Shown: piece by piece, positions 25,041-25,155 of the stretch
How the letters are laid out: each line of letters begins with the position of its first letter
Numbering within the stretch: the first letter of the stretch is position 1
DNA from: Sulfurimonas indica
GTDB taxonomy: Bacteria; Campylobacterota; Campylobacteria; Campylobacterales; Sulfurimonadaceae
DNA length: 64,000 nucleotides
NCBI RefSeq assembly: GCF_009192995.1
Contig: NZ_SDID01000011.1
Location: 1-64,000, forward strand
Reading direction: 5' to 3'
Notes under the pieces: generated by a model
Told to the model about the DNA's origin: nothing
Seen by the model: only the letters and a program-made list of their open reading frames with translations
Databases searched by the model: none
Made by a program: the position numbers and the translations under genes

Positions 25041-25155
25041 CTCCTTAATTTTATTTCATAAAATGAAGGGCACCCCTCCATCTATTTAGTACAGAAAAGG
25101 AAGTAATTCCTTTTCTTACGCTAACACTATGTTTCCCTCAGCGGGAAGCTCTCGC
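25041..25155 (-). promoter_or_regulatory. Structured leader upstream of fabI (copy A)
   Basis: Intergenic stretch between tpiA and fabI that is similar over about 115 nt to 42362-42480. On the fabI-sense (minus) strand it folds as: TTCCC-GCTGA-GGGAA (25133-25147); a 10-bp perfect stem AGAAAAGGAA-TTAC-TTCCTTTTCT (25093-25116); and an 8-bp stem with GTG loop (25063-25081). The GCTGA and TTAC loops are identical in both copies, while stem bases change in a compensating way. The G-U pairs exist only on this strand. The function is unknown. Confidence 0.7.

Follow-up and report, generated by a model that had tools for sequence, protein, structure and literature searches.

The Correia/NEMIS elements of Neisseria, together with ERIC, BOX, and RUP, are non-coding repeats of about 100 to 200 nt that are dispersed, patchy in occurrence, and folded in transcripts; they are bordered by terminal inverted repeats and flanked by target duplications. 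Rickettsia palindromic elements are likewise dispersed palindromic repeats (about 100 to 150 nt), which lie within genes and insert in frame in proteins. They also insert in RNA genes. REP sequences with RAYT partners are marked by a GTAG or GGAG foot, an imperfect hairpin, and tandem or inverted clusters. Translational riboswitches switch between hairpins that mask the SD sequence or leave it exposed. Correia elements, most of which lie upstream of genes, are RNase III substrates (PMC10969869). Helix 45 of 23S rRNA is, in C. jejuni among others, a site of intervening sequences, which in Campylobacter accompany the loss of intact 23S rRNA (PMC2801512).

Here, we describe an element that resembles each of these systems in part. 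It was found in a window of 64,000 nt from Sulfurimonas indica (contig NZ_SDID01000011.1), where copies of 132 to 134 nt form the leaders of fabI and of rpmF-plsX-fabH. It shares size, non-coding character, patchy dispersal, and folding with the Correia-type repeats, but terminal inverted repeats and target duplications like those of these families were not clearly seen, and it differs from them in having a covarying multi-stem core, a pseudoknot-like pairing, and an end module complementary to the SD. Compared by description, Rickettsia palindromic elements differ in bacterial order and in their in-frame position, whereas copies of this element are mostly intergenic, at gene starts. One Sulfurimonas pair of cores occupies helix 45 but, unlike the Campylobacter intervening sequences, this is a single site within a family that extends over the genome. 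With REP sequences the element has in common the foot (GTAG or GTAA before P3), the imperfect hairpin, and the clusters; unlike them, it is larger, covaries freely, and shows no correlation with Y1 transposases. Unlike translational riboswitches, its copies have no pathway in common and its core also occurs away from any SD. No description of this repeat was found in an open library of papers, and the RepRanger passages, which give 1,557 candidate REPs for Sulfurimonas gotlandica, describe no such element. We argue that it is probably a mobile but non-autonomous repeat, interspersed in the genome, whose folded core of about 82 nt is strand-specific; one Sulfurimonas subfamily of it forms SD leaders.

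Two related leaders in the window

An initial annotation of this sequence had aligned the two minus-strand leaders, 17 kb apart, and proposed that they share a cis-regulatory RNA controlling lipid synthesis. The alignment holds: the copies are 17.3 kb apart and 74% identical over 164 nt (BLAST E 1.8e-20), and both have the stem order and the identical GCTGA and TTAC loops that had been described (Table 1). The arms of the middle stem, P3, are AGAAAAGGAA/TTCCTTTTCT in the fabI copy and AGTGGCGGAA/TTCCGACACT in the rpmF copy; complementarity is kept in three of the four changed pairs, as annotated, and the fourth becomes G.A. Equally present is the reported exchange of g-c for a-u in the last stem (CCTT/AAGG versus CTTT/AAAG between the fabI and rpmF copies). 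New relative to that annotation are 11 further copies in the genome, a pairing between RGC and the P2 loop (in the fabI copy, AGC immediately 5' of P2 is complementary to GCT in the loop), the SD within the last stem, and, immediately upstream of the SD, a hairpin that competes with this stem. Promoter and terminator patterns at the fabI copy did not exceed chance level. A search of Rfam (4227 families, gathering threshold) returned only tmRNA and tRNA in the window and no credible match on the element, so that no known Rfam family fits.

Table 1. Features of the fabI and rpmF leaders in the window
Feature	Position	Strand	Evidence
Full-type repeat copy (core and SD hairpin), tpiA-fabI gap	25036..25167	-	Covariance model R1, 137.7 bits, E 7.5e-27 in genome
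82-nt core of fabI copy (P1, P2 and pseudoknot-like pairing, GTTA box, P3)	25086..25167	-	R2, 78.5 bits
P1 hairpin, fabI copy; weak here	25153..25166	-	Alignment pairs 3-25 to 7-12
P2 (TTCCC/GGGAA), loop GCTGA, fabI copy	25133..25150	-	Alignment columns 29-39
Invariant box GYGTTARCGTA with mini-hairpin GY-GTTA-RC, fabI copy	25117..25127	-	Alignment
P3 hairpin, tetraloop TTAC, fabI copy	25093..25116	-	Compensatory changes in 9/10 pairs
Competing hairpin P4' (GAGGGG-TG-CCCTTC), takes anti-SD strand, fabI copy	25065..25078	-	Predicted SD accessibility falls over the copies when this arm is shuffled, slightly so here
P4/P5 SD hairpin CCTTCATTTTATGAAATAAAATTAAGG, fabI copy	25043..25069	-	Covariation, 97% of cells paired; exact pattern match
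SD AAGGAG of fabI	25041..25046	-	Sequence
fabI, enoyl-ACP reductase (start codon at 25031)	24213..25031	-	Pfam PF13561, E 3e-87
tpiA, gene upstream of fabI	25170..25886	-	Pfam PF00121, E 2e-67
Second copy, 5' of rpmF-plsX-fabH	42358..42491	-	R1, 134.8 bits, E 3.1e-26
82-nt core of rpmF copy	42410..42491	-	R2, 92.8 bits
SD hairpin of rpmF copy, CTTTCATTTTATAAAATAAAATTAAAG	42365..42391	-	Covariation; exact pattern match
rpmF, ribosomal protein L32 (start codon at 42355)	42206..42355	-	Pfam PF01783, E 1e-11
plsX	41206..42201	-	Pfam PF02504, E 4e-111

Copies in the host genome and in Sulfurimonas

BLAST with the fabI leader hit 10 places in the host genome, and a covariance model built from 10 copies (R1) recovered 13, with E up to 8.8e-14. 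Of these, none matches an Rfam family. The copies precede fabI, rpmF-plsX-fabH, ilvC, ilvD, nusB, dnaK, rplS, a NifU-like gene, a PhnA-domain gene, a pseudouridine synthase gene, a short unassigned ORF, the C-terminal part of nrdD, and tRNA-Trp, where genes outside the Pfam search were named from reading their protein sequences. Fab operons follow just two of the 13.

When all species genomes were scanned with a structured DNA pattern, the records were mostly Sulfurimonas MAGs, the rest being scattered as by chance. Among 60 Sulfurimonas genomes, one per species and many of them MAGs, the element is present in 52, with 0 to 50 matches per genome and 356 in total (model E-values are rough). The SD hairpin occurs in 129 of 164 distinct copies. 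By gene calls from a simple script, a start codon directly follows 127 of these 129, at a median of 2 nt past the model end; one of the other two precedes tRNA-Trp and one was left unplaced. The downstream genes form 67 groups with no pathway in common, so the confinement to fab, pls, and acc leaders that a lipid-specific RNA implies is not seen, and a copy stands at fabI in only about 6 of the 45 Sulfurimonas genomes with fabI. That two similar-gene leaders appear among the 13 host copies is accounted for by the placement of the subfamily at SD sequences.

A covarying, strand-specific fold

On the sense strand, the element runs through P1, P2, a box (GYGTTARCGTA), P3, and a 3' module. P1 usually has the form NNGCA-CUAG-UGCNN, P2 carries a GCYGA loop, P3 has 10 pairs with one mismatch and a UUAC loop, and the 3' module reads CCTT-N-ATTTTAT-GAA-ATAAAAT-N-AAGG, its AAGG being the SD. 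Across the 87 aligned copies, 93.3% of cells are paired versus 40 to 49% in slid controls, double changes occur in 29 of 36 pairs, and the covariation score is 0.465 versus 0.175 in shuffles. The SD hairpin (P4/P5) contributes covariation of its own, with 97% of cells paired in the 87-copy alignment. Covariation reaches beyond the two copies in which it was first noticed, and comparison of the sequences confirms an RNA-like fold, with the conserved, covarying, aptamer-like core that would characterize a riboswitch. Chance palindromes in AT-rich leaders are excluded by the slid and shuffled controls, by the lack of matches in unrelated genomes (0/12), and by GC-rich copies in another family.

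The fold also has a strand. It had been claimed that G-U pairs are valid on the sense strand alone, and over the 87 copies P3 contains 35 G-U versus 3 A-C cells, so a single strand is folded. This wobble asymmetry is absent in P1 and P2, in part from alignment shifts, and support is uneven among helices.

Immediately before P2, RGC can pair with GCY in the P2 loop. The variable position of this pairing is paired in 86 of 87 copies (50 GC and 35 AU; shuffle maximum, 74), and all three pairs are formed in 29 of 30 copies from other genera and families. Because there is no spacer between the helices, a true pseudoknot would be tight, and the pairing may represent an alternative hairpin instead.

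The SD module and the copy inside nrdD

The competing hairpin P4' pairs the anti-SD strand with the segment directly upstream of it. In predicted ensembles, AAGG is unpaired with a mean probability of 0.58 natively versus 0.24 with the P4' arm shuffled, a computed drop that holds for 77 of the 87 copies (Wilcoxon p about 1e-12). The predicted effect on SD accessibility is large for the rpmF copy (0.86 versus 0.03 after shuffling) and small for the fabI copy (0.94 versus 0.81). The module is predicted to fold bistably, in a way that might expose or hide the SD, with the leader open (ON) by default.

A copy within nrdD (G000:C49:123975-124104 in the host, L016; also L147, L059, L068, and L084) illustrates how an SD may be put to use. 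The large nrdD ORF matches NRDD positions 2-532 and ends at the TAG of the element box. In the same frame, 81 nt downstream, the SD of the element and an ATG open an ORF of 49-50 aa that matches NRDD positions 530-562, including the glycyl-radical motif. Because different species share this split arrangement, translation of the second peptide probably starts from the SD that the element supplies.

Filled and empty sites

Most fabI leaders in Sulfurimonas have no copy; a few carry one, and in two there is the core alone, with no SD module. At ilvC, the host site is filled and a species with 99% identical IlvC has an empty site with the same SD region downstream; in this one close pair, the element lies directly 5' of the native SD. 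Such filled and empty orthologous sites, together with many copies at unrelated loci, are what MITE-like elements display. There are palindromic hairpins at both ends of the element, and no clear target duplication was seen at the filled and empty fabI and ilvC sites. At the tRNA-Trp copy, the 3' arm of the hairpin is a sequence that is also found in an empty site, TTTGTAAAATTTAGG. Species differ at rpmF, pgpA, and dnaK in their 5' module, which is of type A, type B, or a third kind, and at rpmF and pgpA the differing modules sit before similar SD hairpins. With the 3' module constant while the 5' module varies, the moving unit is incompletely defined.

Between pairs of copies at probably orthologous sites, we counted 103 compensatory versus 56 broken pair changes. 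This suggests that the element functions in place after insertion, although re-insertion or conversion would give the same pattern. A search of the Y1 transposase family in 60 Sulfurimonas genomes gave no partner for the element: Y1 matches do not follow copy number (rho -0.02), and 40 of these genomes have none. The lack of correlation with copy number speaks against a Y1/RAYT transposase as the mover.

The core in other families and in RNA genes

A second covariance model (R2), of the 82-nt core alone, found matches in 43 of 150 Campylobacterales genomes from 14 genera, with a maximum of 30 copies in a genome; the 12 unrelated genomes that served as a negative control had no match. The core occurs in at least five families besides that of the host (f3, f4, f6, f7, and f20, with f15 marginal). 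In a sample from outside Sulfurimonas, orientation to neighbors is mixed (9, 9, 8, and 5 over the four arrangements), and the SD module is not evident among the copies listed. The finding that had been named as speaking against a shared regulatory RNA was a dispersed repeat, with numerous randomly oriented copies at unrelated loci. The core outside Sulfurimonas behaves in this way. The Sulfurimonas SD-hairpin subfamily does not, being almost always in sense orientation and immediately 5' of a start codon.

RNA genes are among the sites occupied. In one Sulfurimonas genome (G012), an inverted pair of cores lies in helix 45 of the 23S rRNA gene, a placement assigned from flanking sequence and found at this locus only (L171:1490-1676); a search of five other genomes with the 23S insert added nothing. 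The P12 loop of RNase P RNA holds a copy in the GC-rich genome G027 (L363:1340-1422). Inverted core pairs in G198 lie in 16S-23S spacers just 5' of 23S (L349:1290-1439 and L350:1305-1454), and the identical pair stands at two more places, which are probably further rRNA operons. Other cores are next to tRNA genes, in a tRNA cluster, and four occur in tandem with an exact 92-nt period in G200 (L352:1357-1716).

Within seven Sulfurimonas genomes, 13 core copies without the SD module were scored as antisense to both neighbors, a count that includes, as a gene-calling artefact, the one in 23S rRNA. Several lie directly against stop codons. The wobble asymmetry in these copies follows the element's own strand (16 G-U versus 6 A-C), which, in a small sample, suggests that selection acts on the element itself and not on the transcript that hosts it.

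A mobile repeat and its alternatives

Many copies, patchy sites, and insertions into RNA genes are direct observations in favor of a mobile repeat. Weighing against it are the absence of a transposase partner in the Y1 search and of a clear target duplication, the excess of compensatory changes at probably orthologous sites, the variable 5' modules, and the small antisense sample. One Sulfurimonas subfamily bears an additional 3' module closed by an inverted repeat with AAGG, and its copies are placed as 5' leaders, perhaps through insertion targeted at AAGG. The P4/P5 hairpin could lock the SD. In computed folds, P4' upstream captures the anti-SD strand and the SD stays accessible, so that insertion would be tolerated and the copy would act as an insulated leader. 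Such copies might plausibly alter mRNA processing or the rate of translation. The fold is probably maintained both by the requirements of spreading and by some selection after insertion.

Several alternatives can be set against this reading. The most credible of them, which we consider possible if on the unlikely side, is that the elements are RNA processing sites, with P3 or P1/P2 cleaved by RNase III or by an enzyme related to it, so that cistrons are separated and the downstream message receives a stable 5' end. This would be compatible with a mobile origin, and it draws on the copies inside operons, in 23S helix 45, and in rRNA spacers, with parallels in the Campylobacter 23S intervening sequences (PMC2801512) and Neisseria Correia/NEMIS elements (PMC10969869). 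However, P3, at 10 pairs with a mismatch, is short for RNase III, and the invariant box and pseudoknot-like pairing are left unexplained. Less likely still, and in our view doubtful, is a cis-regulatory RNA with a broad regulon, whose pseudoknotted core would sense a general signal (metabolite, protein, or temperature) and shift the balance of P4' against P4/P5. The bistable SD module with its covarying hairpin and conserved competitor, the invariant box and loops, the sense orientation 5' of start codons, and the compensatory changes at probably orthologous sites would all be expected from such a regulator. They are countered by 67 unrelated downstream gene groups that share no pathway, by a presence that is patchy per gene even among near-identical species, by the predicted default ON state, and by SD-less cores in rRNA, in RNase P RNA, and in antisense or mixed orientation. 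A metabolite ligand is unlikely, since copies lie before unrelated genes and the core outside Sulfurimonas is in mixed orientation; effects of leader copies on translation or processing are possible.

A REP-type repeat moved by a RAYT/Y1 transposase seems very improbable: the GTAG foot of P3, the G.A mismatch within that stem, and the tandem and inverted pairs recall such repeats, but 40 of 60 genomes are without a Y1 match, copy number is independent of Y1, the unit exceeds REP size, and the stems covary freely. Hardly any weight can be given to a regulatory RNA dedicated to fatty-acid synthesis. The two fab operons downstream of host copies fit that proposal, but copies before unrelated genes, spread across 67 groups, and their absence from most fabI leaders rule it out; what stands of the annotated lipid regulator is its covarying RNA-like fold. 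The mobile repeat remains our preferred explanation. Its most far-reaching version, a riboregulator in which a pseudoknotted RNA spreads into SD sequences and places tens of unrelated genes under one translational switch, we regard as a long shot; if true, each species would assemble its own set of controlled genes.

The structured repeat family described here is apparently unlisted and is found in six or more families of Campylobacterales. In many housekeeping genes it remodels the region where translation starts, and it occurs within rRNA, RNase P RNA, and an nrdD gene as well. As such, it offers a case in which to examine how a mobile element that folds can occupy ribosome binding sites and yet leave them active, and a warning that covariation and leader position alone are insufficient to call a riboswitch.

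Other repeats within element copies

The element itself harbors smaller repeats. A nested hairpin of approximately GGTACCCCTTGAGGGTAT occurs in the P3 or P5 loop at seven loci (L136, L142, L161, L164, L179, L181, and L188), as if a smaller repeat had invaded the larger one. Another repeat, CAGAAAAAAATTTAGTTTTTTTCTAAGTCAYGCTTTAGC, lies in gaps between tpiA and fabI and also within a single element copy (L140, L203, and L217).
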